Positions 413 to 63,310 of a stretch of DNA of 64,000 bases are shown in pieces; within the stretch, counting starts at the first letter, position 1; each line of letters opens with the position of its first letter. The translations under genes and the position numbers were made by a program. Below the pieces are notes generated by a model. That model was not told the DNA's origin. It made no database searches and saw nothing but the letters and a program-made list of their open reading frames with translations. Source of the stretch: Aureibaculum sp. 2308TA14-22 (GTDB lineage Bacteria > Bacteroidota > Bacteroidia > Flavobacteriales > Flavobacteriaceae); NCBI RefSeq assembly GCF_040538665.1, contig NZ_JBEWXT010000001.1, forward strand, positions 2,506,501 through 2,570,500. Reading direction: 5' to 3'.

Positions 413-3400
413 ATGAAAACAAAGTTTAATGGAATTTTAACGCTATTACTGGCGTTGGTAGTGCAATTTACTTTTGCACAAGAAAAAACTGTCACAGGTA
501 CGGTTTCTGATGAAACAGGACCATTACCGGGTGTTAGTGTAGTAATTAAAGGTACAACTACAGGTACTGAAACTGATTTTGATGGTAATTACACCATTCA
601 AACTAAAGAAGGTGATGTGCTTTCCTTTAGTTTTATTGGAATGGCTCCAAAAGAAGTTACAGTAGGTGCATCTAACACTATTAATGTAGTTTTAGAAGCA
701 GACAATGTACTTGATGAAGTAGTTGTTACAGGTCTAGGTATTAGAAGAGAGAAAAAAGCCTTAGGGTATTCTCAACAATCTGTAGATGCCGAACAACTAC
801 AAAAAGGTAAAGACATTGACGTTAACAACGCATTAGCTGGTAAAGTGGCAGGTGTGCAAATTGTTGGTCAAGCTAGTACTGGTTTTAGAGACTCTCAAAT
901 TAAATTAAGAGGTGAATCTAATGTTCTTTACGTTGTTGATGGTGTTCAAGTGTATCAAGTTGGTGATATCAATACCAACGATATTGCAGATATGTCTGTA
1001 CTAAAAGGTGGATCAGCAACAGCAATTTATGGTCCCGATGGGCGTAACGGTGTAATTATCATTACAACTAAAAAAGGGAAAAGTGGTAAGGCAACATTTA
1101 CAGTAGACCATTCAACTATTGTAGGTAATGTTACTAATTTACCAGAATACCAAAATGAATATGGAGGTGGTTATAGCCAAACATTTAATACATTTAGCTA
1201 TGACCCAGCAGTTGATCCAGCTGATTGGGCAAGTTTTGATGGAGACCCCTATCCTGATTTTTTCGCAGATGAATCTTGGGGTCCAAGATTAGATGGAACT
1301 CCAGTACGTCATTGGGACTCTTGGATACCAGGAACTCCTGAATTTGGAGAATTAAGAGCTTGGGAACCAACACCAAATGATGTTGAGACATTTTATAGAA
1401 CAAGTATAACTAACAATACTTCATTAAGTTTTGCTAAAGGAGGAGATGGTTATAATATTAGGTCTGCAATTTCTCTTATTGATAAAGGAGGTATTATTAC
1501 TAATTCTGATCAAAAGACAGTAAACCTTTCTTTAAATGCTAGTTATGACATTTCTGAAAAATTTACAGTTAATGTAAATGTTAACTACCAAGATAGAAAA
1601 ACTAGAAATGACCCTGATCAAGGTTATGCCAACTTAGCTTCAAACATGAACCAATGGTGGCAAAGACAATTAGATTTTGATAGATTAAAAGACTATGAAC
1701 GTGCAGGACAAATTGTTTCTTGGAACATTAGAGGCACAAGAGATGCTAGACCATTATATTGGGATATGCCAGGTTTTGAATCTGAAGAAAATTTAAAACA
1801 TGAATATAAAAATTCAGCATATGGTAAAATTGGAGGTACTTATACCTTCAATGATAAATTTAATGTTGTTGCAGAGGTGAGATCTACTTTTCATAATTTT
1901 GCTAGAGATGATCGTGAAACAACTAAAAGTTTGTTAGACCCTGCTTCTTACGCAGAATATCAAAGAAGATTTAATAAAGAACATTATTTTTCAATGTTAA
2001 ATTATACTGATAGCTTTTTAGATGGCGACTTAGATGTGGACGCAAGTTTGGGTGGAGAAATTGTAGTTTACGATTTTAAAGGTCTTAGTGCTTCAACCAA
2101 TGGTAATTTAACCATACCTGAGTTTTATAACTTAGCTGGCTCTAAAGATCCTGTATCTGCAAGTACTAGTATATCACAAGGTGAAACTAGGGGTGCCTTT
2201 ATAAAAGCGTCCTTTGGGTTTAAAGATATGTTGTATTTAGATGGATCTTACAGATTAGACTGGTCATCAACAGCAAACCCGGATGACAACAGGGTAGATA
2301 CTTATGGAGTTTCTGCCAGTTTCTTGGTCAATAAGTTAATCCCACAAAATGACATTATGGGCTTCTTTAAGTTGAGGGCAGGTTATGCTCAGGCACCTTA
2401 TTTCCCAGGTCCATACCAAATCTCTAGTGTTTACAATGTTGGTGGACTATACCAAGGAAATGGTACCTTATCAGTTGCTGGACTTCAGAACAACCCTAAC
2501 CTTGTAGGCGGCGTTAGAAACGAATTAGAATTTGGAGCTGAATTTAAATTTATTAAAAATAGAATTGGACTAGATATTACTTACTTTAATAGAATCGATG
2601 AAGATTTACCAGTTTTTGTATCATTAGATGGTGCAACTGGTTATACAGGTATAACGGTTAACTCTGGTAAGAATACTTCAAATGGTATTGAAATAGGATT
2701 GAATGGATCTATTGTTAAAACAGATGACTTTACTTGGGATCTTGGTGTAAACTTTGCTACCTTAGAAAAATTTGTAGATGCGATTTACCCTGGTGTTGAT
2801 TCTTATGATATTAGTACGTATACTTCTAGTATGAAATTGCAAGCTAGAGTTGGTGAAGAGTATGGTTTATTTTACGGTAGAGGTTTTGCTACACATACTG
2901 ATGGTAGTATTATCTTCACATCTACTGATAATTTTGCTAGAGAGTCTAATAAAAGATTAGGTAGTTTATTACCAGACTACACTTATGGTATAACTTCTAC
3001 AATCAGATATAAGAACGTAGATTTATTTGTTGGATTTGATGGACAAAAAGGAGGATTATATTATTCAAGAACTGAAAGATATATGGACCACTCTGGTTTA
3101 TCAGCAAAAACTGCTGGATTAAATGATAAAGGTAATCCTTTAAGAGATCCTGTAGCTAACGGTGGTGGTGTGCACATAGTAGGTGTATTACAGACTGGAA
3201 CAGATTCGAACGGTGTACCTATTTCTGACGGTACGGTAGTTGACAAATATGTTGACGCACAAGATCACTTTAACTTAGGTAACTTAGGTAACATTTACGA
3301 AAATAACGTACATGATGCTACTTACTTAAAGTTTAGAACGGCAAGGTTAAACTATAACTTTAACCCTGATTTAGTTTCAAAAATGGGATTAGAAGCAGTT

Positions 3401-5102: not shown

Positions 5103-5205
5103 ATATTTTCTTAAAAAACCTACGCAACCACCTACCATTACTAACATCTTACAATATAGATGTAATTGCTAAAATTTCAATTTTAACCTAATTTATGTTA
5201 AATAG

Positions 5206-5236
5206 TTGTTTTATTAACATAATTTTACCATTTTTG
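5206..5236 (+). promoter_or_regulatory. Putative Bacteroidota promoter of the second susC
   Basis: TTG at 5206-5208 and CATTTTTG at 5229-5236 are spaced by 20 nt, the same layout as before the first susC. Between and after the boxes, TTGTTTT, TTAACAT and TTAATTCAAATAAT are shared with that copy. Confidence 0.5.
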
Positions 5237-5263
5237 CGGCAATTAATTCAAATAATAGATAAC

Positions 5264-8200
5264 ATGAAAACAAAGTTTAGTGGAATTTTAACGCTATTAC
5301 TAGCGTTTGTGGTGCAATTTACGTTTGCACAAGAAAGAACTATTTCCGGTACTGTAACCGACGAAACTGGCCCTTTACCAGGAGTAAACATTTTAATAAA
5401 AGGAACAGCTACAGGTACTGATACGGATTTTGATGGTAATTATGCCATTCAAGCAAAAACGGGTGATATACTTGTTTTTAGTTTTGTTGGTATGGCAAAC
5501 AAAGAAGTTACAGTAGGTACTTCAAATACCATAAATGTAGTATTAGAATCTGACAATCTACTTGAAGAAGTTGTAGTTACCGCTTATGGTACTCAAACAA
5601 AAGAATCCTTAACCGGATCTATTGTTGAAATTGATTCTGAAGAATTTACGAAAGTAGCCTCAGGTAATGCTGTTACAGGTCTTACTGGTAAAATTGCCGG
5701 TGTACAAATATTTTCTAATTCAGGTCAACCTGGTACTGCACCAGTTGTGCGATTTAGAGGTATTGGATCATTAAATGGTTCATCTGCCCCATTATATGTG
5801 GTTGATGGTGTTCCTTTTACGGAATCAATTACAACGATTAACCCTAATGATATTGAGTCAATGTCATTTGTTAAAGACGCTTCGGCTGCTGCCCTATACG
5901 GTAACAGGGGTGCAAATGGTGTAGTAATTATTACTACTAAAAAAGGTAAGTCTGGTAGAATGAATGTTTCTTTAGACATTAAAACCAGTATGACTGATCT
6001 TGCAATAAAAGATTATGACGTTATGACTGGAGCTGGTGAGTATTTTGAGGCATATCACAAAATGTTAAAAACCAATGAAATCGTTTTAAATGGTCTTTCA
6101 GAGTCAGATGCAGGAATAAAAGCTTCAAATGATTTACTAGATGGAACATTAGGATTGATTTACAATCCTTACGGAGGAGACAGAACTAATTTAGTTAGTC
6201 CAAATGGGCAATTTAGAGGAGGTACTCCTTTATGGGAAGATGACTGGAGAGATTATCTTTTTGAAAGTTTTAGCGGTGTAAATACTGCCTATTTAAGTTT
6301 ATCTGGTGGTAACGAAAATTCAAAATATTTTGTGTCATTAGGTCATGAAGACAATGAAGGTTACAATATTAATACTGGGTTTAAAAGATCTACGTTAAAA
6401 GCAAATGTAGAAACCTCTTTTACAGATAATATATCTGCTGGTGTACAAATGAATTATGCCAACCGTGAGCAAAAAGGAACTTTAACTAACAATATTACAG
6501 GTAACTTTGCTTGGGTAAGAGATATTGCTCCTATTTATCCTGTTTTTGCTAGAGATCATGCAACTGGAGAAATTGTAAGAGATGGTCAAGGTAATCCTGA
6601 ATGGGATTGGGCAGATGTTACTTCTCCTAATGCCGTAGCAGGAAGACCTTTTAACGGATTCTCAAACCCACACGCACTACAAACTTTAAATGTTAACACT
6701 GATACTCGTGACAATTTTACTTCAAGAGTATTTGCTAAGGTTAATTTTTTAAAGGATTTTACGTTTACTTATAATTTAGGTTATGACTTAGCTACATTTA
6801 ATTTAGTTGATTATACTAATAAAAAAGTAGGTAGTGCAAGTTCAACTGACATTGCTGGTAGGTTAAGAGAAAGATATGGTAGAGGGACTACGATAACAAA
6901 CCAACAATTATTAAATTGGAAGAAAAATTTAGGTGATGTTCATAATGTGGAAATTTTATTAGGACATGAAGCAACTAATTATGATTTTAAGGATATAGAT
7001 GTAAACTTAAGAAGACAATTCTTAGCTAACGATTTATCTCCAGATTTATTTGCCTTACCTGATGGTGCAGATGCCATTTTAGGTGATTATACTGAATATG
7101 ACTTAGAAGGATTTTTTGCTAGGTTAATGTATGATTATGATGGTAGGTATTATATTAATGGTAGTGTAAGAAGAGATGGATCATCAGTATTTCACCCAGA
7201 CAACAGATGGGGTACCTTTTATGGTGTAGGTTTGGCATGGAGAGTTTCACAAGAATCTTTCTTACAAGATGTATCTTGGTTAAATGAATTAAAGTTTAAA
7301 TCAAGTTATGGTCAACAAGGTAATGACGTTGTTCGCTATCCAAATTCTGTTAACAGAAATTACTCTCCTTTCTTAGATCAATGGGGTGTAACTAAAAATG
7401 GTGATGACTTTGATATTGAAAAGACCGTCTTTGGTAATAAAGATTTAACTTGGGAAACTTCTACAAACTTTAATGTAGGTTTTGAAGCCCAATTCTTTAA
7501 TAACCGTTTACGTATTGAATCTGAGTACTTTATAAGAGAAATATCAGATTTAATTCACAACAGAGAGTTACCACCTTCTACTGGTTTCCCTTCTGTTCCT
7601 GAAAACGTAATGGATATGGAAAATAGAGGTGTTGAAGCCTTAATCTCTTATCAAATTATAAGCAAAGAAGATTTATCTTGGTCTTTTGACTTGAATGCAA
7701 CACATTACAAAAACGAAATTACTGCGTTTGTACCTGGTAAAGAAAACATTGATAATGGTAGGTACAGATGGACCTTAGGTGGTACGGCTTTTGACTATTA
7801 TATGAGAGAATTTGTAGGTGTAGATCCTACCAATGGTAATGCTCAATGGAAAACCGATGTTGTAGCGGATCCTGATGGAGTACCTTACAACGGTGTTACT
7901 GATGACTATTCAGTAGCAACTCAATATTTACAAGAAACTGCTTTACCTGATGTTTATGGTGGTTTTTCAACAAATGTAGTGTACAAAAATTTTGATTTTG
8001 GTGTAGATTTTTCTTATCAAATTGGTGGTAAGGCTTATGATGCCATTTACAATGATGGTTTTGATGGTAGTATTGGAGGGAATTTTCATAGAGATTTTAG
8101 CAAAACTTGGACATTCGATAATCAAACTGCTACATTACCAAGAGTTGATGAAAACACAAATAACTGGAATCAATTCTCAACTTTATTCTTAGAAGATTCT

Positions 8201-11567: not shown

Positions 11568-12842
11568 ATGAATGCCCCTTTAGCAGAACGTATACGTCCA
11601 AAAAAGCTTGCTGATTATATCAGTCAACAACATTTAGTGGGTGAAAAAGGAGCTTTAACTGCTCATATTAAAAGAGGTGTCATTCCGTCACTCATATTGT
11701 GGGGACCTCCCGGAATTGGAAAAACAACTCTGGCCAATATAATTGCAGAAGAGTCCAAACGCCCGTTTTACACGTTAAGTGCAATAAATTCTGGAGTTAA
11801 AGATGTAAGAGAAGTCATTGACAAAGCTAAACAAAGTGGCGGGTTATTTACTACTAAAAATCCTATCTTATTTATTGATGAAATTCACAGGTTTAGCAAA
11901 TCGCAACAAGATTCGTTACTTGGAGCGGTTGAAAAAGGCTGGGTTACCTTAATAGGTGCCACTACGGAAAACCCCAGTTTTGAGGTAATCCCCGCACTAC
12001 TCTCTCGCTGTCAGGTCTATATTTTGAATTCTTTTGATAAAGAAGATTTAATAGCTCTTTTAAACCGTGCAATTTCAGAAGATGAAATTATTTCAAAAAA
12101 GAAGATAAAATTAAAAGAAACTGACGCTTTATTACAACTTTCGGGTGGTGATGCTCGTAAGCTTTTAAATATTTTTGAGTTGATTGTTAGTGCAGAGGGT
12201 GATTCTGTTGTAATCAACAATGATAAAGTATTAGAAAAGGTTCAAAAGAATACGGTCCGTTATGACAAAACGGGCGAACAGCACTACGATATCATATCGG
12301 CGTTTATAAAATCCATACGAGGAAGTGATCCGAATGCAGCAGTCTATTGGTTAGCAAGGATGATAGAGGGTGGCGAAGATGTTAAATTTATTGCCAGAAG
12401 ATTGGTCATATTAGCATCAGAGGATATTGGAAATGCCAACCCAAATGCTTTAATATTGGCAACATCAACTTTTCAAGCGGTTTCGGTAATTGGTAATCCT
12501 GAATCACGGATTATATTAAGTCAGTGTGCAGTATATTTAGCAAACTCGCCCAAAAGTAATGCTTCATATATGGCTATAGGTAATGCTCAACAATTGGTAA
12601 AACAAACTGGTGATTTATCAGTGCCTTTACATTTAAGAAATGCCCCAACAAAATTGATGAAAGATTTAGATTATGGTAAAAATTACCAATATGCACATAA
12701 CTATGAAGATAATTTTATTGACCAAGAATTTTTACCTGATGAAATTAGAAACACAAAGCTCTATGAACCTGGAAATAATAGTAGAGAAAATAACTTTAGA
12801 GAATTTCTAAAAAAACGTTGGAAAGATAAATATAAATATTAA
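11568..12842 (+). CDS. rarA: Replication-associated recombination protein A (RarA/MgsA, AAA+ ATPase)
   Basis: AAA+ ATPase that acts at stalled replication forks, homologous to eukaryotic WRNIP1. 424 residues from the ATG at 11568. Walker A GPPGIGKT at residues 46-53, Walker B with LFIDEIHRF at about 101-109, a sensor-1 segment (GATTENPSF), an arginine-finger region (ALLSRCQVY), and the C-terminal tetramerisation region (SFQA-type [41 protein letters not shown]). All core motifs are intact and the length is normal for RarA. Confidence 0.95.
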
Positions 12843-12873
12843 ACTCATCCCAACCCTTCCCCAGGAGAGGAGC
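12843..12873. repeat. Degenerate GC-rich interspersed palindrome
   Basis: The short gap between rarA and the convergent hypothetical gene holds CATCCCAACCCTTCCCC followed by AGGAGAGG. This is G+C-rich in an otherwise AT-rich spacer and resembles the better-preserved copies at 32741, 58277 and 61376. The arms are imperfect, so it looks like a decayed copy. Confidence 0.4.
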
Positions 12874-12890
12874 TAGTTTCATATTAACAT

Positions 12891-26701: not shown

Positions 26702-29700
26702 TTATAATTTTAAATTTAAACCAAATGAGACTATCCTTGAGGGAGTAAATACATTTGAGGTATTACCATTAAACTGTTGCTGAACATTAAGCCCTTTACG
26801 AGCATTAATAGAAAAAATATTTTCTGCAGTGGCATATAATCTTAAATAAGATAAGCCAATCTTTTCCGCTACATCAGCATTAAAGGTATAAGCAAGATTT
26901 GCTTGTCTTAAATTCAAGTTTGATGCGTCCGTTAACCATCTATCCGAAGTGGCATCCCACTGTGATGCAGAAGAAGCATCCATTCTTGGTACATTGGTAA
27001 TATCTCCCGGTTGTTGCCAACGGTCTAAAATATCAATATGTTTTGCCTCGCCATAAGTTCCTGCACTCATAATTCCTGCATAATTTAAATCTAAGGTTTC
27101 ACCACCTATCTGATATGTAAACAATGTTGACAAAGAGAAATTCTTATACTTAAATTCATTGGTTATAGCTCCTGTTAAATCAGGAATGGCAGAACCAGCA
27201 TAATGAAATTTAGCATTACTGGAAGCGGTTGTTACCGCTACACCATCTACTGTTCTAACATTAGATGCTGTTGGATCATCGGCCACGTAAAGGCCTGCCC
27301 CGTCACTAGGATCAACACCATACCAATCTCTCAACCAATAATCAAATAAGCCTTTACCAACTTGCAGTTTTTTAGTACCGTTGATAATTTCTCCTTGTGG
27401 CAATTCTGTAAATTCATTTTGAATTGTAGCTGCGTTTATATTGATATTCCAAGAAAAATTTTCGCTCTTAATAATATCGGCTGACAAACTAACTTCAATA
27501 CCTCTATTGAATAACGTACCAATATTTTGTAGTTTGCTATCCGCTCCGTCAGAAAAAGCAACCGGAACATTAAATATCAAGTTTTGTGACTCTTTATTGT
27601 AATATTCTACAGAACCCCTAATCCTATTGAACAAACCAAACTCTAACGCAACATCAAAATTTGCACTTGTTTCCCATTCTAAATCTGGTGCTCCTAAGCT
27701 AGATCTTATAATACCAGGTTCAGACTGATTATTATTATCTAAGGCAAAAGTTGCTTGTGCTGGGTAATAATCAGCTACTAAAACTCCTCCAACCGTTTTT
27801 AATATCCGACTGTTCCCTAATTCACCATAAGAAGCTCTTAATTTCAATTGATTTATCCATGATACATCACTTATAAAATTTTCTCTATCTATACTCCAAG
27901 AACCACCTAAAGACCAAAATGTACCCCACCTTTTTTCATCTGTAAAACGTGATGAACCGTCAGTACGGATAGAACTGCTTAAAAAATATTTATTATCATA
28001 ATTATAGTTAAGTCTTCCAAAATAACTATCATCGGTAGCTTCATCTCGTTGAGATACAAGATCAGTTGTTTCTACAAAATTGATTAGCTCTAAATTTCCT
28101 GCAGCAATTTGCGTTCTACGGGTTCCATTCAAATCATCTATCTCTAATCGTTGACTTTCATGACCACCTAACACTTCAAAGTTATGTACCTCATTAAAAG
28201 TCTTTGTGTAATTTAATAATTGATTAAAACCAACTGTTCTGGTTCTAACAAATTGTCTAAACCCTAAACCAGTAGGTGCACCATCTCCAATTATTGTATT
28301 CCAGAAAAAGGTATTATAAAAATTATCTTCTTCATAACTTAGATTTGTTCTCAAGGTTAAGCCCTCAGCTAAAGTTATGTCAGCATAGGTTTTTAAATTG
28401 ATATTTGTTATTTCATCAAAGTCAACATCTAATTGTCTTTCTAAAACAACATGTCTACCAGTACTTGCACCACTTGGTCTATTGTCGTTTAAATCAAATT
28501 TTCTGTTTCCGTTTTCATCGAGTACGAATGCCCCTGTAACTGGATCATGTTCGTAAATAGGATAAATAGGTCCCATTTGTCTCGTAAATCTAAAAGCATT
28601 TCTAAAGCTGGTGTTACCACCCAAATTACTTTGGTTACTATCCGACTTACCACCCGCAAAGTTACCTCCTACTTTTAACCATTTTTTTGCTTGATAATTT
28701 ACATTGACCCTAGCCGTAAATCTTTCAAAATCAGATTTTGTTATATAACCTTCTTCATCTAAATAACCAAAAGATGCAAAATAATCAGCATTTTCAGTTC
28801 TTCCTTGATAACTAATGTCGGCTGTTCTTCTAATACCTGTTCTGGTTATAGCACCTTCCCAATCAAAATCATTATATAATAATGATGCATTTGGGTTTAA
28901 TTGCCCGTTAGTTCCAACTATCTGATCATTTGGAACATTGTAAGGGTTATAACCTAATATCCCAAAAATACCATCACTAGCCGCTTGATTTGCTGCATCT
29001 AAATCAGCCTGGCTACTTACACCTGGTATTGCGGAAGTATTTCTTAAGGCTTCCCACATCACCGGATAATAATCATCGGCATCAATTCTGTCATATTCTG
29101 GAATAGATCTATCCACAATACTTGTTGATATATTTACCGAAAGTTCTCCTCTACCAGTTTTACCTTTCTTAGTGGTAACCAATACCACACCATTTGTTGC
29201 TTTGTTTCCATACAACGCTGTTGAAGAAGCATCTTTTAAAATGGTAATGTTATCAATATCATTAGGATTAATGCTTGATAAATTACCGTTGATAGGAATA
29301 CCATCAACTACATACAATGGTGCGTTGGTTGCTGTAAAAGAACCAAAACCCCTAATTCTAATGCTTTGGCCCGCACCTGGTTGACCACTTGCCGTGGCAA
29401 TAACTCCCGGAGAAGCACCTTCAATAGCAGTAGACAAGTTTGTAATTGACCTTTTTTCAATGTCTTCCGTTTTTATTTGAGTAACAGCACCCGTTAGTGC
29501 CTCTTTACTTGAAGTACCATACGCAACTACAACAACTTCTTCTAACAAATTATCAGATTTCATTATTACATTGATAGTGCTAGATGAACCAACGGCAACC
29601 TCTTGGGTAGCCATACCCACAAAGCTAAAAACAAGAATGTCTCCTGTATTTGCTTCAATGGAGTAGTTACCATCAAAATCGGTATCGGTACCAGATGTGG

Positions 29701-29842
29701 TACCCTTAATAATAATACTTACTCCTGGTAATGGGCCAGAATCATCCGTTACCTTACCAGTGATTGTTCTTTCTTGAGCATAAAGCAGGGAACCGCTAAA
29801 CATTACAAGAAAGAAACATAAATTGTAAAACTTACATTTCAT
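26702..29842 (-). CDS. SusC/RagA-family TonB-dependent outer-membrane transporter (3)
   Basis: 1046-residue TonB-dependent importer. Signal peptide ends at LLYAQ; regulatory-like domain with GPLPGVSIIIKGTTSG and DFDGNYSI; TonB-box-like EEVVVVAYG; plug with PLYVVDGIPI and TNGVVLVTTKKGKTG; barrel to the C-terminus. The signal peptide differs from those of the other two susC genes. Upstream, on the opposite strand, lies a fragment of another susC start. A membrane-bound AraC-type regulator gene is 244 nt upstream on the same strand and may control it. Confidence 0.95.
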   Translation of the reverse strand: MKCKFYNLCFFLVMFSGSLLYAQERTITGKVTDDSGPLPGVSIIIKGTTSGTDTDFDGNYSIEANTGDILVFSFVGMATQEVAVGSSSTINVIMKSDNLLEEVVVVAYGTSSKEALTGAVTQIKTEDIEKRSITNLSTAIEGASPGVIATASGQPGAGQSIRIRGFGSFTATNAPLYVVDGIPINGNLSSINPNDIDNITILKDASSTALYGNKATNGVVLVTTKKGKTGRGELSVNISTSIVDRSIPEYDRIDADDYYPVMWEALRNTSAIPGVSSQADLDAANQAASDGIFGILGYNPYNVPNDQIVGTNGQLNPNASLLYNDFDWEGAITRTGIRRTADISYQGRTENADYFASFGYLDEEGYITKSDFERFTARVNVNYQAKKWLKVGGNFAGGKSDSNQSNLGGNTSFRNAFRFTRQMGPIYPIYEHDPVTGAFVLDENGNRKFDLNDNRPSGASTGRHVVLERQLDVDFDEITNINLKTYADITLAEGLTLRTNLSYEEDNFYNTFFWNTIIGDGAPTGLGFRQFVRTRTVGFNQLLNYTKTFNEVHNFEVLGGHESQRLEIDDLNGTRRTQIAAGNLELINFVETTDLVSQRDEATDDSYFGRLNYNYDNKYFLSSSIRTDGSSRFTDEKRWGTFWSLGGSWSIDRENFISDVSWINQLKLRASYGELGNSRILKTVGGVLVADYYPAQATFALDNNNQSEPGIIRSSLGAPDLEWETSANFDVALEFGLFNRIRGSVEYYNKESQNLIFNVPVAFSDGADSKLQNIGTLFNRGIEVSLSADIIKSENFSWNININAATIQNEFTELPQGEIINGTKKLQVGKGLFDYWLRDWYGVDPSDGAGLYVADDPTASNVRTVDGVAVTTASSNAKFHYAGSAIPDLTGAITNEFKYKNFSLSTLFTYQIGGETLDLNYAGIMSAGTYGEAKHIDILDRWQQPGDITNVPRMDASSASQWDATSDRWLTDASNLNLRQANLAYTFNADVAEKIGLSYLRLYATAENIFSINARKGLNVQQQFNGNTSNVFTPSRIVSFGLNLKL

Positions 29843-32308: not shown

Positions 32309-35300
32309 ATGGAATTGATAAAAGCCTATACACCCAAAAATAAAATAAGAATTGTAACAGCTGCCTCATTATTTGACGGACATGATGCCGCTATAAATAT
32401 AATGCGTAGGATTATTCAGGCTACTGGTGTAGAGGTAATCCATTTAGGTCATGATAGAAGCGTAGAAGAGGTAGTAAATACAGCTATACAAGAGGATGCT
32501 AATGCCATAGCAATGACTTCCTACCAAGGTGGACATAACGAGTACTTTAAATACATGTTCGATTTGCTCCAAGAAAAAAATGCTTCTCAAATTAAAATTT
32601 TCGGTGGAGGTGGTGGAGTTATTTTACCCGAAGAAATCAAGGAATTGATGGAATATGGAATTGCCCGAATCTATTCACCTGACGATGGTAGAAAAATGGG
32701 TCTTCAGGGCATGATTAACGATATGGTGGAGCAATGTGATGGAGGCCCCTCCCTAGCCCTCCCCAAAGGGGAGGGAATATTAGAACTCGTTAAAAGTAAA
32801 GATGTAAATACGATTGCCAGATTGATTACTTTGGCTGAAAATGATTATGATTCTTTCACAACTATTTTTTCCCCTTCGGGGAAATTAAAAGGGACCTGTC
32901 CTGTTCTCGGTATTACGGGTACTGGCGGTGCTGGGAAATCATCGTTGGTTGATGAATTGGTAAGGCGTTTTTTGTCCGATTTTGAGAATAAAACACTTGG
33001 AATAATTTCTGTTGATCCTTCTAAAAGAAAAACAGGCGGAGCATTATTGGGAGATAGAATTAGAATGAATTCCATTAAAAACGACCGCGTTTATATGCGT
33101 TCATTGGCAACACGGCAATCAAATTTATCACTATCCAAAAATGTTTCTGATGCAATTGACATATTAAAAATAGCTGAATTTGACCTCATTATTTTAGAGA
33201 CTTCTGGTATTGGGCAATCGGGTACGGAAATTATTGAGCATTCTGATGTTGCTTTGTATGTAATGACTCCTGAATACGGTGCGGCAACCCAATTGGAAAA
33301 AATCGACATGATCGATTATGCGGATATAGTTGCCCTTAATAAATTTGATAAACGTGGAGCATTAGATGCTTTACGCGATGTAAAAAAACAATATCAGCGA
33401 AATCATAACCTTTGGGAAAGTAATCCCGAGTCTATGCCCGTTTTTGGCACAATTGCTTCTCAATTTAACGATCCGGGAACAAATTCTTTGTACAGAGCCA
33501 TTATTGATAAGTTGAATGAAAAAACAGATATAAACCTAAAAAGCACATTTAAAATAACCGATGAAATGTCGGAAAAACAGTTCATTATTCCACCGAAACG
33601 GACACGTTATCTTTCTGAAATTACCGATACTAATCGCAATTATAATCAGTCGAGTATTGAACAAAAGGAAATTGCTCAAAAATTGTATGGTATTTATAAG
33701 ACGGTTTGTTCTGTGTGCGATGTTAGTGCTTTGGATAACAATCAAGATTTTATTACGGAAAATGGTTTGGACGAAAACGTTCTATTAAAAATACCTCTCG
33801 ACTCCGCTCGAGGTGACAACCATGTGGATTTATTACAACTTCTTTTAAAAGAATTTGTTCGAATTAAAAAAGAGCTAACGCCAAAAAATTGGGAAATAAT
33901 CTTAGCTTGGGAAGCAAAAAAACAATCTTACAAAAATCCTGTTTATACTTTTAAAGTTCGTGATAAGGAAATAAAAATAGATACGTATTCTGAATCGTTG
34001 TCACATTTACAAATTCCAAAAATTGCCTTGCCAAAATATGAAGCTTGGGGAGATGTTTTGCTTTGGAATTTACAAGAAAATGTTCCAGGCGAATTTCCTT
34101 TTACTTCAGGTATTTATCCGTTTAAACGGACTGGCGAAGACCCTACACGGATGTTTGCTGGCGAAGGCGGCCCAGAACGTACTAACCGACGATTTCATTA
34201 TGTGAGTTTAGATATGGAAGCTAAGCGTTTGTCTACTGCTTTTGATTCGGTTACCTTATATGGAAACGATCCTGATCTACGTCCTGATATATACGGAAAA
34301 ATTGGTAATGCCGGTGTTTCCATTTGCTGTTTAGACGATGCCAAAAAACTGTATTCTGGCTTTGAATTGACCAACCCAATGACTTCGGTTTCCATGACTA
34401 TTAACGGTCCAGCACCGATACTATTAGGGTTTTTTATGAACGCTGCTATTGATCAGGAATGTGAAAAATATATCAGAGCAGAAGGTTTAAAAAAGGAAGT
34501 TGAGAAAAAGATTAATGCCATTTACGAAAAGAAAGGTATTCAAAGACCTCAATATCAAGGAGAACTCCCTGAAGGTAACAGCGGATTAGGTTTATTGTTA
34601 TTAGGTGTTACTGGAGATCAGGTTTTACAAGATGATATATACCAAAAAATTAAGTTAGATACTATTGCTAAAGTGCGAGGTACTGTCCAAGCAGATATTT
34701 TAAAAGAAGACCAAGCACAAAATACCTGTATTTTTTCAACGGAATTTGCATTGCGATTGATGGGTGATGTGCAGCAGTATTTTATTGAAAATAAAGTTCG
34801 GAATTTTTATTCTGTCTCTATTTCTGGTTATCATATTGCTGAAGCTGGTGCAAATCCTATCTCGCAATTGGCATTTACCTTGTCAAATGGTTTTACCTAT
34901 GTAGAGTATTATTTATCTCGTGGAATGGACATTGACAAATTCGGACCAAATCTATCTTTCTTTTTCTCCAACGGCATTGACCCAGAATATGCTGTAATTG
35001 GTCGGGTTGCTCGTAAAATTTGGGCGAAAGCCATGAAATTAAAATATGGAGCTAACCCAAGAGCTCAAATGTTAAAATACCATATCCAAACTTCTGGGAG
35101 ATCGTTGCATGCTCAAGAAATTGATTTTAATGATATAAGGACCACATTACAGGCATTGTATGCCATTTATGACAATTGCAATAGCCTTCATACCAATGCT
35201 TATGACGAGGCTATTACAACTCCAACAGAAGAATCGGTACGTAGAGCAATGGCTATTCAATTGATTATTAACAAGGAATTAGGCTTAACAAAAAATGAAA

Positions 35301-35776
35301 ACCCTATTCAAGGTGCATTTATTATTGAGGAATTGACTGATTTAGTTGAAGAAGCCGTTTACGCTGAATTTGATAGAATTACTGATAGAGGTGGTGTTTT
35401 AGGAGCTATGGAAACCATGTATCAACGTTCTAAAATTCAAGAAGAAAGTTTGTATTACGAAACCTTGAAGCACAATGGTGATTTCCCAATTATTGGAGTA
35501 AATACATTTTTAAGCAGTAAAGGCTCTCCAACTATTTTACCTCAGGAAGTTATTAGAGCTACTGAAAAAGAAAAAAAATATCAAATTGAAGTAGTTAAAA
35601 ACCTGAATAAGGGTAATGCTGACAAATCTGAAGTACAGCTTAAGCTACTACAAGAAAAAGCGATTAAAAACGAGAATATTTTTGAACAATTGATGGAAGC
35701 TACCAAAATTTGCTCTTTAGGTCAAATTACCCATGCTCTCTTTGAAGTTGGTGGAGAGTACCGCAGAAATATGTAG
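32309..35776 (+). CDS. icmF: Fused isobutyryl-CoA mutase IcmF (B12 domain, G-protein chaperone, mutase)
   Basis: Coenzyme-B12 mutase interconverting isobutyryl-CoA and n-butyryl-CoA (or related acyl-CoAs), with its GTPase chaperone fused. 1155 residues from the ATG at 32309; the start at 32282 is a TTG and adds nine residues not expected in the family. Order: B12-binding domain at about 1-135 ([20 protein letters not shown]), P-loop GTPase at about 195-420 ([16 protein letters not shown]), linker, then the TIM-barrel mutase domain at about 560-1155 ([19 protein letters not shown]). Two short segments, residues 145-156 and 496-505, are encoded by palindromic repeats that look inserted. Some substrate ambiguity with methylmalonyl-CoA-like mutases remains. 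Confidence 0.92.
32741..32775 (+). repeat. GC-rich interspersed palindrome inside icmF
   Basis: Arms CCCTCCCC (32757-32764) and GGGGAGGG (32768-32775) flank AAA, preceded by GGAGGCCCCTCCCTAG. The block is far richer in G+C than the gene around it and encodes icmF residues 145-156 in frame. Similar blocks lie between genes at 58277-58298 and, decayed, at 12843 and 61376. Confidence 0.75.
33794..33823 (+). repeat. Second, different palindrome inside icmF
   Basis: CTCGA (33797-33801) and TCGAG (33808-33812) bracket CTCCGC, followed by GTGACAAC. It encodes icmF residues 496-505 ([10 protein letters not shown]) in frame, in the GTPase-mutase linker. I recall near-identical CTCGACTxCGCTCGAG elements followed by GTGACA as dispersed repeats in flavobacterial genomes; that recollection is not checked here. 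Confidence 0.7.
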
Positions 35777-60201: not shown

Positions 60202-61323
60202 TTATTTAAACAACCATCGAATTGCTTCACCAAATTCGTCCCTCCACATAGTTTCGTTATGCTTTCCACCATCTACAATTTTTTTTATAATATTTTTCTT
60301 TTTAAAACCACTTTTTTTCAGCGTTTTTGCAACTTTCTCCATTGCTTCAATAGCACTATCACCTTCTTCACTACCGATTAAAAAATAGGCTTTGATATTT
60401 GCTTTTTTACTATGCTTTTTAGTAAAATCAATCACTTTATCAGAAAACCAAAAAGAAGGCGAAAACACACCCACTTTACCGAATGTTTTTGGATATTTCA
60501 TAGCTCCGTAATAAGAAATCAACCCACCCATGGAACTGCCGATAATGGCGGTATGCTTAGCCTGTGGTTTCGTTCTAAAAGAACTGTCTATTTTTGGTTT
60601 TAAGGTTTCAATTATAAATTGGATATAGGCATCTCCTTTTCCGCCACCGTAAATTTTGTTTTTCCAAGGCGAATATTCGTCCATTCTATGTTTAGAACCG
60701 TTATCAATGCCCACCACGATTATTTTTAAATGTTGTTCTTCGGCCAACCGATTCATAGTTTCATCAACAGCCCATTCCCCAGCAAAAGCGGTGGCATTAT
60801 CAAATAGATTTTGCCCGTCTTGCATATAAATTACAGGGTATTTCTCTTTTGAAGATTCATAATCTGGTGGCAGATACACCCAGATTCTCCGTTTTCTTTT
60901 GAGTTGTGGAATGTGCATTGCTTTGTAGAACAGCTTTACATTTTCGGAAGCCGTAGAATTGGGGATTTTTCCCTTATTCCAATTATTTATTTCAATTTTT
61001 ACGGTATCATTTGGCATAGTAAACGTGTATTGGCGATTTTCAATTTGATTAAAATCCGTGTCGGTTTCAACGGAGTCCCAAGACCCTTTTGTGAATTTGA
61101 AATTAATCGTTTCTTCTTGTTGCGGCAAGGTAATAAAATAACGATTTTTTTGCTGTTGCAATTTGTAAACCTCTTGACCGCCCGACCAGTTTTCAAAGTC
61201 CCCAGAAATAAAAATAGCATCAGTGTTTTTAGGAAATTGCTCCACAACAAAAGTTACTTGAGCGAAACTAAATTGAGAAACCAATAAAATAATAAAAGTT
61301 GATATCGGTTTTATTTTTTTCAC
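60202..61323 (-). CDS. Esterase with N-terminal starch-binding-like domain (alpha/beta hydrolase)
   Basis: The GTG at 61323 gives 373 residues with a normal signal peptide (MKKIKPISTFII start, cut near SFAQ); the GTG at 61377 would add 18 residues and bury it. N-terminal domain at about 23-110 resembles a CBM20/CBM48 starch-binding domain (IFISGDFENWSGG, FTKGSWDSVETD). The C-terminal Fes/esterase D-type domain has YMQDGQNLFD, nucleophile GSSMGG and a late GGKHNE His. May remove acyl groups from substituted glucan or act on a related ester; the substrate is inference. Confidence 0.8.
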   Translation of the reverse strand: MKKIKPISTFIILLVSQFSFAQVTFVVEQFPKNTDAIFISGDFENWSGGQEVYKLQQQKNRYFITLPQQEETINFKFTKGSWDSVETDTDFNQIENRQYTFTMPNDTVKIEINNWNKGKIPNSTASENVKLFYKAMHIPQLKRKRRIWVYLPPDYESSKEKYPVIYMQDGQNLFDNATAFAGEWAVDETMNRLAEEQHLKIIVVGIDNGSKHRMDEYSPWKNKIYGGGKGDAYIQFIIETLKPKIDSSFRTKPQAKHTAIIGSSMGGLISYYGAMKYPKTFGKVGVFSPSFWFSDKVIDFTKKHSKKANIKAYFLIGSEEGDSAIEAMEKVAKTLKKSGFKKKNIIKKIVDGGKHNETMWRDEFGEAIRWLFK

Positions 61324-61375
61324 TTTACTATTTCGTTTTATCAATTTCTGTTTTAAAATATTGAATGATAAACAC

Positions 61376-61405
61376 ACCCCTAACCTCTATCAAGAGGGAA
61401 TCTGT
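61376..61405. repeat. Decayed interspersed palindrome before the GH13 gene end
   Basis: CCTCT and AGAGG pair around ATCA, preceded by CACCCCTAA and followed by GTCCCC. Same composition class as the elements at 12843, 32741 and 58277, located in the 88-nt gap between two genes of the operon. Confidence 0.4.
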
Positions 61406-61411
61406 CCCCGT

Positions 61412-63310
61412 TTACATTTTAGTGGTCAACAAAATCACACCTTTTTCTACAATTACAAAAGGACTGTTCCACGTTATTTGCTCTTCTGAAATCAAATTTT
61501 TCATCGGTTTTTGATCCAAGCCCATTTCTTTAAAACGGTTTAAGTCTAATTCCACTTGCTCGTCGTTTTTATTTAAAATCATCACAACAGTTTCATTACC
61601 TTCAACTCTAAAAAGCACATAAATTCCATTTTCAGGTGCAAAATGTATGGTTTTGCCCTTGTGAATGGCATTGCTTTCCTTACGATAGTTCAACACTTTT
61701 TTCAGGAAACTTTGCATTTCTTTTTGATCATCGCTCAACCCTACGCCGGTAAAACCATTTACAGTATCGCCTTGCCACCCACCAGGAAAATCAGTTCTAA
61801 TCAATCCGTGGTCACCCGGCTTTTCAACATCACTAAGTAACACTTCAGTTCCGTAATAAATTTGTGGAATTCTTGGCAAAAGCAATATTGTTGCCAATGC
61901 CATTTTGGTTTTGGTAAGATCTTCATCTAACTGAGTGTAAATTCTACTCATGTCATGATTATCAGGAAAAATCATAATATCCTTAGGTTTTGTATAATGA
62001 AAATCATTGGCCAAGCCTTCATAGATTTTTACCAAACCTTTGTCCCAAGATTCTTCTTCCTTTATGGCTTCAACTATATTATGCTGCATGGGGAAATCCA
62101 TTGTAGAAGTGAGATTTGACTCGTATCCATCTTTATTGTTCGAACCCGTTTGCCAATAACCAACTAACAAAGGATTTAAACTCCACTCCTCACCTACAAT
62201 ACTAAAATTAGGGTATTCTTTCATTATTGCTCCTGCCCAATCTGCCATAAAATCTTTGTCGGGATATGGATAGGTATCTTGTCGAATTCCTCCTAAACCA
62301 AGCGTTTCTATCCACCAAATACTGTTTTGAATGGTGTAAGTTGCCATAAAAGGATTACGTTGATTTAAATCTGGCATTGTAGCCACAAACCAACCTTCAT
62401 TATTTCCCTTTCTGTCATATTCGGACGCATAAATATCTTGGTTTGTAGTTCTTCTATGATTTGAATGATTGGTATTTTTCCAGTCCCAATTGGCTTTGTT
62501 TTCTTCATAATTTTTTTGATCGTTTATCCAGTCATCAAAAGGTAGGTCTTTCATCCACCAATGTTCAATTCCACAATGGTTGGCCACTTGATCCATTATT
62601 AATTTCATCCCCTTTCCTCTCATTTTATCAGCCAATTCAACATAAGTTTCAATTGTTCCAAAACGTGGGTCTACTTGGTAATAATCTGTAATAGCATAAC
62701 CATGATATGAAGATTCAGACATGTCATTGGTTAACAAAGGTGTTGACCAAATAGCGGTAAAACCCATGTCATTTATATAATCCAAATGATTTATGATACC
62801 CTTAATATCACCTCCATGTCTAAAATAATCTTGCTCTCTATTTAAAGTTTGATCCCTAAGTCCAGAAACCTTATCATTTATGGAATTTCCATTGGCAAAT
62901 CTATCAGGGGTAATTAAATAAATAACATCTGAACTGTCAAAGCCAGCAAATTCTTTAGCATCCTTTTTACGCGATTTTAACTCGTAAGCATAGGTTATTT
63001 TTTTACCTTTCTTTCGTTTAAAAACAATATCAAATTTGCCTGGCTTGGTCTCTTTATCTATTTTTAGATTTAAAAATAAATAGTTTGGGCTAGTTCCTTT
63101 TTCAATGCTTATTAAGTTAACACCATCATAAGAAACACTTGGCACTGCAGAACTTATATTTTTGCCTTTTACCAACAATTGCAAGTTGTTGTTTTCAAAG
63201 CCCACCCACCAATTTAGTGGTTCAACACGTTCTATTTGGGCATTTACGGTTATACTCATAAGCAGTAATATTTGACCTATAAAAATAAATTGTTTAACAA
63301 GATAACTCAT
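61412..63310 (-). CDS. GH13 neopullulanase/cyclomaltodextrinase-type enzyme (SusA-like)
   Basis: 632 residues with signal peptide ending near TVNAQ. An N-terminal Ig-like cyclomaltodextrinase domain (about 25-115; EPLNWWVGFENNNLQLLVKG as region 31-50) is followed by the GH13 barrel (VIYLITPDRFANG, MDQVANHCG, GGIRQDTYPYPD with Asp nucleophile, IVGEEW with Glu, FPDNHDM with Asp) and a C-terminal beta domain. It would cut maltodextrins or pullulan in the periplasm. 31 nt after the GH97 gene, in the same operon. Confidence 0.9.
   Translation of the reverse strand: MSYLVKQFIFIGQILLLMSITVNAQIERVEPLNWWVGFENNNLQLLVKGKNISSAVPSVSYDGVNLISIEKGTSPNYLFLNLKIDKETKPGKFDIVFKRKKGKKITYAYELKSRKKDAKEFAGFDSSDVIYLITPDRFANGNSINDKVSGLRDQTLNREQDYFRHGGDIKGIINHLDYINDMGFTAIWSTPLLTNDMSESSYHGYAITDYYQVDPRFGTIETYVELADKMRGKGMKLIMDQVANHCGIEHWWMKDLPFDDWINDQKNYEENKANWDWKNTNHSNHRRTTNQDIYASEYDRKGNNEGWFVATMPDLNQRNPFMATYTIQNSIWWIETLGLGGIRQDTYPYPDKDFMADWAGAIMKEYPNFSIVGEEWSLNPLLVGYWQTGSNNKDGYESNLTSTMDFPMQHNIVEAIKEEESWDKGLVKIYEGLANDFHYTKPKDIMIFPDNHDMSRIYTQLDEDLTKTKMALATILLLPRIPQIYYGTEVLLSDVEKPGDHGLIRTDFPGGWQGDTVNGFTGVGLSDDQKEMQSFLKKVLNYRKESNAIHKGKTIHFAPENGIYVLFRVEGNETVVMILNKNDEQVELDLNRFKEMGLDQKPMKNLISEEQITWNSPFVIVEKGVILLTTKM

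Follow-up and report, generated by a model that had tools for sequence, protein, structure and literature searches.

The short G+C-rich palindrome that lies within the icmF coding sequence of Aureibaculum sp. 2308TA14-22 belongs, close to certainly, to a family of palindromic elements dispersed over this genome, two copies of which bracket an endonuclease domain of the DUF559 family in recG. We consider it rather probable that this palindrome represents the ends of a DUF559 element, present as a solo copy; such an element would be homing-endonuclease-like and would sit in genes in frame and unspliced. The findings suggest a scarcely known type of selfish DNA that invades genes. The original prediction, made from the letters of the window (the whole analysed stretch, 64,000 nucleotides), of a dispersed palindromic element with in-frame copies was borne out; the link to DUF559 endonucleases formed no part of it.

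The palindromic elements of icmF

The icmF gene (32309..35776, + strand) was identified by its open reading frame, Pfam and PDB as encoding fused isobutyryl-CoA mutase, with B12-binding, MeaB GTPase and mutase domains; its PDB relative is 4xc6, 'Isobutyryl-CoA mutase fused'. The perfect 8-bp palindrome predicted inside this gene is real, as the hairpin CCCTCCCC-AAA-GGGGAGGG, with the loop AAA, occupies 32757..32775 and no match to it, with up to two mismatches allowed, appeared in any of 100 shuffles. The 12 residues ascribed to it, 145-156, correspond to DNA 32741-32776 in the frame set by the ATG at 32309, and they do fall between the Pfam B12-binding (14-112) and MeaB GTPase (169-367) domains. 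The extent predicted for it, 32741-32775, contains the palindrome, but the element itself reaches from about 32738 to 32779 once its 5' arm, GCCCCTCCCTAG, is counted in. This arm and hairpin, which we call site 1 (32738..32779, + strand; 12 residues encoded in frame), scored 53 bits with the covariance model R1 (E 2.3e-13 in the window and 1.3e-11 in the genome). A second copy, absent from the original prediction, was found at site 2 (32863..32902, - strand); it is inverted and decayed, encodes 12 residues directly before the GTPase P-loop, and scored 19.8 bits with R1 (E 0.00078 in the window, 0.0436 in the genome). In the relatives L083, L085, L087, L095 and L098, site 2 is occupied by full reverse elements.

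A dispersed family with in-frame copies

Model R1 was built from 14 genome copies, with an 8-bp hairpin. The consensus, in the sense of icmF, reads AAGCCC(A/C)TCCCTA(G/A)CCCT(T/C)CCC-NNN-GGG(A/G)AGGGAA; a 5' arm (GCCC.TCCC), nearly repeating the left strand of the hairpin, is followed by the hairpin CCCTYCCC-NNN-GGGRAGGG, and the whole element measures about 35-42 bp. A search of the genome had been proposed as a check, with absence of the element elsewhere as the outcome that would speak against the prediction. When R1 was run over the 3.57-Mb genome, it returned 71 rows at E<=10 and 38 rows at E<=0.06; with two opposite-strand duplicates subtracted, the latter correspond to at least 36 distinct places (a lower bound, 150 of 455 candidates having been scored), of which 14 built the model and 22 are independent. 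A pattern search of both strands, allowing up to three mismatches, gave 18 rows with two places counted twice, and the reversed control pattern gave none in the same genome. Composite copies were also seen, in which an extra small hairpin, GATAGCTATC, stands between arm and hairpin (L004, L016) or the hairpin loop is enlarged by extra sequence (L171, L181); the insert in these four is either the second palindrome GATAGCTATC or a stretch of GCCTCNGCTAAAGCTATGGCGA.

Intragenic copies were then set against the others, as the original prediction had also proposed. Nine of the 36 places lie in frame within long open reading frames and 27 do not, a ratio that is no test of frame preference, out-of-frame copies within genes being counted as intergenic. 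The nine belong to seven genes: icmF and recG with two each, and five with one, which by Pfam are valS, leuS, a heavy-metal P-type ATPase, an ABC transporter and an OstA-like gene. In the last two the copy is placed at the C-terminal end of the gene; valS and leuS were told apart among class I synthetases by motif. The in-gene copies occur in both orientations. The heavy-metal P-type ATPase (L160, near 2708394 of contig C1) carries several element-coded stretches, KPLPTSPKGR, LPLWGSGGF and SPLLGKEKGGG, in the parts that separate the HMA, HMBD and ATPase domains from one another.

The prediction that related elements lie between genes of the window received weak support. One decayed intergenic candidate of the R1 family was found at 61365..61402 (+ strand; 18.5 bits, E 0.0019 in the window and 0.107 in the genome), between the open reading frames 60202-61377(-) and 61412-63310(-), with a 13-nt overlap with the first; another candidate, at 12836-12875, had E 0.12. 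The window also contains repeats of about 300 nt (348-647, 5199-5498 and 29463-29780), direct and inverted and 72-77% alike, which are probably paralogous genes.

The icmF linker in relatives

Comparison of 110 IcmF loci (30 and 80; 103 different rows in the tree) revealed a clear linker palindrome in 12, all of them in linkers of one 15-residue kind; the palindrome of a 13th scored locus, L132, looks like chance. Among the genera with icmF elements are those of Gelidibacter algens, Flavobacterium soyangense and Psychroflexus maritimus. Site 1 of the relatives carries forward elements and site 2 reverse ones, with sub-types that differ between genera. On the IcmF tree, calculated with the linker columns removed (110 rows, 13 scored as palindromic), at least 11 changes of palindrome state are needed, and we reject one ancient insertion followed by descent. 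The linker type changes 14 times, at least 10 of these changes being forced by the starred branches. Gelidibacter algens, which has the palindrome, is sister to G. salicanalis, which does not, with a support of 99. None of the 110 loci contains DUF559.

The original prediction also implied an in-frame insertion within the protein. For the family, the nine in-frame places agree with this, but a clean 12-residue insertion at icmF is unsupported, element-free linkers being about as long. Between GLQGMIN and TGTGG the linker has 65 residues here, 59-73 in relatives without the palindrome and 65-94 in those with it. Since palindrome-free linkers of 59-73 residues stand against the 65 found here, the element-coded residues appear to replace linker rather than lengthen it. 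Orthologues with the same residues and no palindrome had been named as evidence against the prediction, and in part they exist, as some relatives carry the decayed-looking VLTLPDENN, SLSLPKNK or DLNLPEGKD. Elements of this kind often settle in icmF, whether by insertion, by replacement or through recombination between icmF genes, and the copy here is most likely a passenger forming part of a flexible linker.

A DUF559 module between two elements in recG

The 851-residue RecG of this genome contains two R1 elements, a forward one at the 5' side (E 2.9e-10) and a reverse one at the 3' side (E 1.2e-7), and a complete DUF559 (Vsr-like) endonuclease domain between them, located by Pfam between the DEAD and Helicase_C domains. 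R1 matches each end of this module as well as the solo copies, so that terminal inverted repeats shared with an autonomous copy, as expected of MITEs, are present.

The recG site was read in 30 loci out of 40 genomes searched. It is empty in 20, where the sequence is MWMKNxLPPHILVMTATP, occupied in five (this genome, G007, G010, G022 and, up to the contig end, G015), and filled by a longer loop in five. Three further occupied loci were found outside the 30 (G178, G171 and G108). Within the genus of the window alone there are eight empty sites, four occupied ones and four longer loops. The longer loop of G008 retains AAAAGCCCATCCC, which is likely a remnant.

The domain in recG evolves under purifying selection. 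For the five pairs whose motif is intact, dN/dS of the insert was 0.10-0.15; it was 0.24 between this genome and G007 and 0.36 between G007 and G010, the modules of both of which have EIDV in place of the conserved E-x-D-G motif. For the host part it was 0.04-0.08 where not saturated. The insert had a lower pS than the host part in all seven pairs, which are not independent of one another.

DUF559 modules and their hairpins

In the Flavobacteriaceae we read 84 DUF559 loci (L189-L272), which take in nearly all of the stronger among the matches listed. Nineteen lie in frame inside leuS (11), recG (5) or metH (3); 57 are free-standing and eight are otherwise fused, six of them before hemD-like open reading frames, one before a PLP-enzyme gene and one after hisD. 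The hemD-like fusions (L196, L201, L203, L209, L210 and L220, with Pfam for L196 alone) come from six genera and form one clade (99). No intein family was found in the DUF559-fused open reading frames, for which Pfam gives host domains and DUF559 alone. The flanks of the leuS modules mostly read FPILSFPKGE and PPSGARG, coded by forward and reverse elements. In the tree of the DUF559 domain (107 columns), the recG modules fall on one side of a branch (98) and so do the metH modules (99); those of leuS are not one clade (3 changes). A profile of ten domains matched PDB 3hrl at 1.8e-32 and, at 1.1e-5, the 'Mobile intron protein' 3r3p. Two properties asked of a homing endonuclease are thus found in the module, namely homology (3r3p, E 1.1e-5) and the coexistence of occupied and empty alleles (5/30 and 20/30, respectively, in recG).

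All five DUF559 domains of this genome have, by eye, G+C hairpin repeats near them, and around the open reading frame of L193 these form a clear inverted pair. Among the 84 loci, a G+C hairpin within 350 bp was found upstream in 63, downstream in 51 and on both sides in 44. The corresponding numbers at a control distance of 900 bp were 1, 3 and 0 (both far flanks exist in 80). An inverted-repeat score of at least 16 between the two flanks was obtained for 27/84 near pairs, 0/80 far pairs and 2.9% of permuted pairs. Neutral gene ends served as further controls: for icmF (n=30) there were hairpins upstream in none, downstream in nine, which look like terminators, and on both sides in none, and for recG (n=26) the numbers were 0, 1 and 0. 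Perfect hairpins were found at none of the three metH modules on either side and downstream of 2/11 leuS modules. The hairpin sequence tracks the relatedness of the DUF559 domains (Mantel r 0.30 for 44 loci and 0.27 for 41; 0/2000 permutations), an effect that is small in mean distance (0.32 vs 0.37; 0.34 vs 0.43).

The two also go together across genomes. PF04480 was found in 72/149 Flavobacteriaceae genomes, with many weak matches, and R1, under stricter filters, in 38/149. A strong DUF559 match (E<1e-20) is present in 31/38 genomes with R1 vs 20/111 others (Fisher p 2.7e-12), seven of the 38 being without one; three or more R1 hits occur in 12/18 genomes with host-inserted DUF559 vs 10/131 (p 5e-8). 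That the palindrome family goes with DUF559 is well supported. Intergenic pairs of forward and reverse elements, with spans of 126-399 nt, were observed at L273, L274 and L276-L282, among five listed genomes; in some of these pairs the reverse copy stops exactly at an ATG.

Across the phylum, PF04480 occurs in 109/198 genomes. At 28 further DUF559 loci, 26 of them outside the family, hairpins were seen upstream in 24, downstream in 21 and on both sides in 19, with 2 upstream and 0 downstream in the far flanks. The hosts of in-frame domains among these loci are metH, leuS, HsdR, HsdM and other DNA methylases; L313, L314, L316, L318, L320 and L328, from other families of the phylum, are the cases in HsdR, HsdM and DNA methylases. 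Beyond Bacteroidota, 38 plasmid records matched, and eight chosen among 25 listed were read (two from the same species): hairpins stood on both sides in three, on one side in four and, by this measure, on neither in one, and the far flanks scored in 4/8 as well, three of these in G+C-rich genomes. This is only a hint of a link outside the phylum.

Proposed mechanism and alternatives

The explanation that we favour makes elements of this build the ends, or non-autonomous relatives, of DUF559-endonuclease modules, some of which sit in frame inside recG, leuS and metH and would be translated through as a part of the host protein, without intein or intron. The endonuclease would cut host-gene alleles that lack the module, and recombination would then copy the module into the cut allele, as with homing endonucleases. 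Stray copies of the module ends could settle at the borders of genes or within the linkers of proteins, where those in frame would be tolerated. Cutting, homing and the movement of short copies by DUF559 are activities that we infer from homology, the gene-specific clades and the empty sites. Several observations weigh against this reading. Most places in this genome are away from any DUF559 gene, seven of the R1 genomes have no strong DUF559 match, icmF contains no DUF559 and its element-bearing linkers are not consistently longer. The leuS modules are not one clade, perfect hairpins are scarce at the metH and leuS modules, and the Mantel effect is small. In the free-standing DUF559 genes L193 and L216 the hairpins point outward and the arms inward, opposite to the order in recG. 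Some Y1 loci also have hairpins on both sides, those of L059 being of the same build, and the recG clade would fit vertical descent with losses too.

Alternatively, the palindromes could form a conventional REP-type family whose mover is RAYT, another Y1 (HUH) transposase or a related enzyme, with DUF559 associated only secondarily. Size class and hairpin build are those of REPs, Y1 transposases occur in relatives (10/21 genomes), and in G007, of the same genus, a Y1 gene (L059) has CCCTTTCC-TTA-GGAAAGGG hairpins on both sides. This gene, at 1150-3000 of its locus and with the motif YIKNQHAHH, is surrounded by closely packed palindromes of several types. For Bacteroidetes, PMC6006769 reports TnpA subclass 2.6, whose flanking structures are atypical. 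However, the present genome has no match to PF01797, which excludes a resident Y1/RAYT transposase as the mover; among 20 Y1 loci hairpins were found upstream of 10 and downstream of eight, with just five having them on both sides, mostly of other sequence; and the recG copies bracket DUF559 rather than Y1. We regard this explanation as unlikely.

A further possibility is that DUF559 homes into existing repeats without moving them, the palindromes acting as its landing sites or hot spots. Most short copies are indeed far from DUF559 (34/36 places in this genome do not adjoin a DUF559 gene), and the two inverted elements around the recG and leuS modules were possibly there first. Nevertheless, no element stands at the empty recG site in 20/30 loci read, and free-standing DUF559 genes have hairpins of their own that track their phylogeny; it is doubtful that the palindromes are landing sites only.

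REPs have been claimed to stabilise or end mRNAs after stop codons, and a host function of this kind, with the in-frame copies as by-products, would suit the position of many elements. By reading, the arm lies within 26 nt of a same-strand stop codon in 19 of the 27 non-intragenic copies, three of which appear to supply the stop themselves, and within 10 nt of a start in three; the remaining five are near neither. Yet copies in coding sequences have both orientations, and the family is patchy (38/149 genomes), which leaves a host function with little probability. Chance formation of a palindrome by the codons of a Pro/Gly-rich linker, although such linkers tolerate Pro and Gly, is rejected as extremely improbable in view of the 100 shuffles, the 36 genome places and the different sub-types at the same icmF site in other genera.

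Returning to a solo copy of DUF559-element ends, the nuclease that is bracketed by the same repeat and sits in frame in recG provides an actual candidate for the enzyme and, with it, a model that can be tested. If it is true, an endonuclease can persist unspliced in essential proteins (leucyl-tRNA synthetase, RecG, methionine synthase), and the LPKGEG-type Pro/Gly-rich peptides in many annotated proteins would be explained. Tentatively, and with somewhat less than even confidence, DUF559 endonucleases and short G+C palindromes may be one class of mobile elements over Bacteroidota, perhaps beyond, consisting of an unspliced in-frame homing-type nuclease bracketed by palindromes, with scattered solo palindromes. 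Speculatively, DUF559 could supply the missing enzyme of transposase-less REP families such as the CGTC REPs and perhaps the Rickettsia palindromic elements.

Comparison with known systems

The entry of palindromic repeats into proteins, in frame, is familiar from work on Rickettsia, where the Rickettsia palindromic elements (RPE) were reportedly described by Ogata and Claverie. As in RPEs, palindromic repeats are found here in frame in unrelated protein genes (9/36 places, seven genes). Compared by description, RPEs are larger, about 150 bp according to the available part of a review vs about 35-42 bp here, and no enzyme is named for them in that part, whereas here DUF559 is bracketed (PMC10969869).

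Closer in size are the GTAG and CGTC REPs, which the accessible text of Di Nocera 2013 describes as palindromes of 20-40 bp that mostly follow genes; inverted pairs occur, some copies lie within genes, including those for replication and repair, and there are in-frame REPs in several species (PMC3733652). The same text has CGTC repeats in Bacteroidetes that 'lack a dedicated transposase'; together with the in-frame REPs of several species this corrects the original prediction, which knew of nothing alike outside Rickettsia (PMC3733652). Our elements resemble both types in being palindromes of this size, mostly after genes, some inside them, and in inverted pairs. In contrast to GTAG REPs they have no unpaired GTAG end tag, the consensus having the ends AAGCCC...GGGAA and CTAG/CTAA internally, and the CGTC end tag and CCA tail of CGTC REPs are absent from the R1 family alignment. 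Flanks of the free-standing DUF559 genes L189, L190, L202, L205, L208, L212, L217 and L235 share an arm of the GACGGAGGG type, like the CGTC tag. GACGG/CCGTC motifs occur in 39/84 near and 17/84 far DUF559 flanks; beside free-standing genes they are a lead toward CGTC REPs, not a match.

REPtrons (RAYT with REP) likewise consist of a nuclease gene flanked by inverted palindromes, with dispersed solo copies, but the enzyme here is DUF559 (PD-(D/E)XK, Vsr-like) and not a Y1 HUH transposase. The Vsr-like homing endonucleases of introns and inteins, such as I-Bth0305I (EDxHD; compare PDB 3r3p), share with the present modules a related domain, occupied and empty alleles at a conserved site, and gene-specific clades; unlike them, our modules involve no intron or intein, stay in the host protein and are bracketed by palindromes.

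The same domain is found in Caulobacter VsrA, a DUF559 protein needed for an SOS response in cells without a cytosine methyltransferase and proposed to act in mismatch repair; palindromes go unmentioned in the part of that paper available (PMC12907096). Our search of open-access papers found none joining DUF559 with palindromic repeats. In-frame palindromic repeats and transposase-less CGTC REPs were already known; what appears to be new here is the link between DUF559 and the palindromes.
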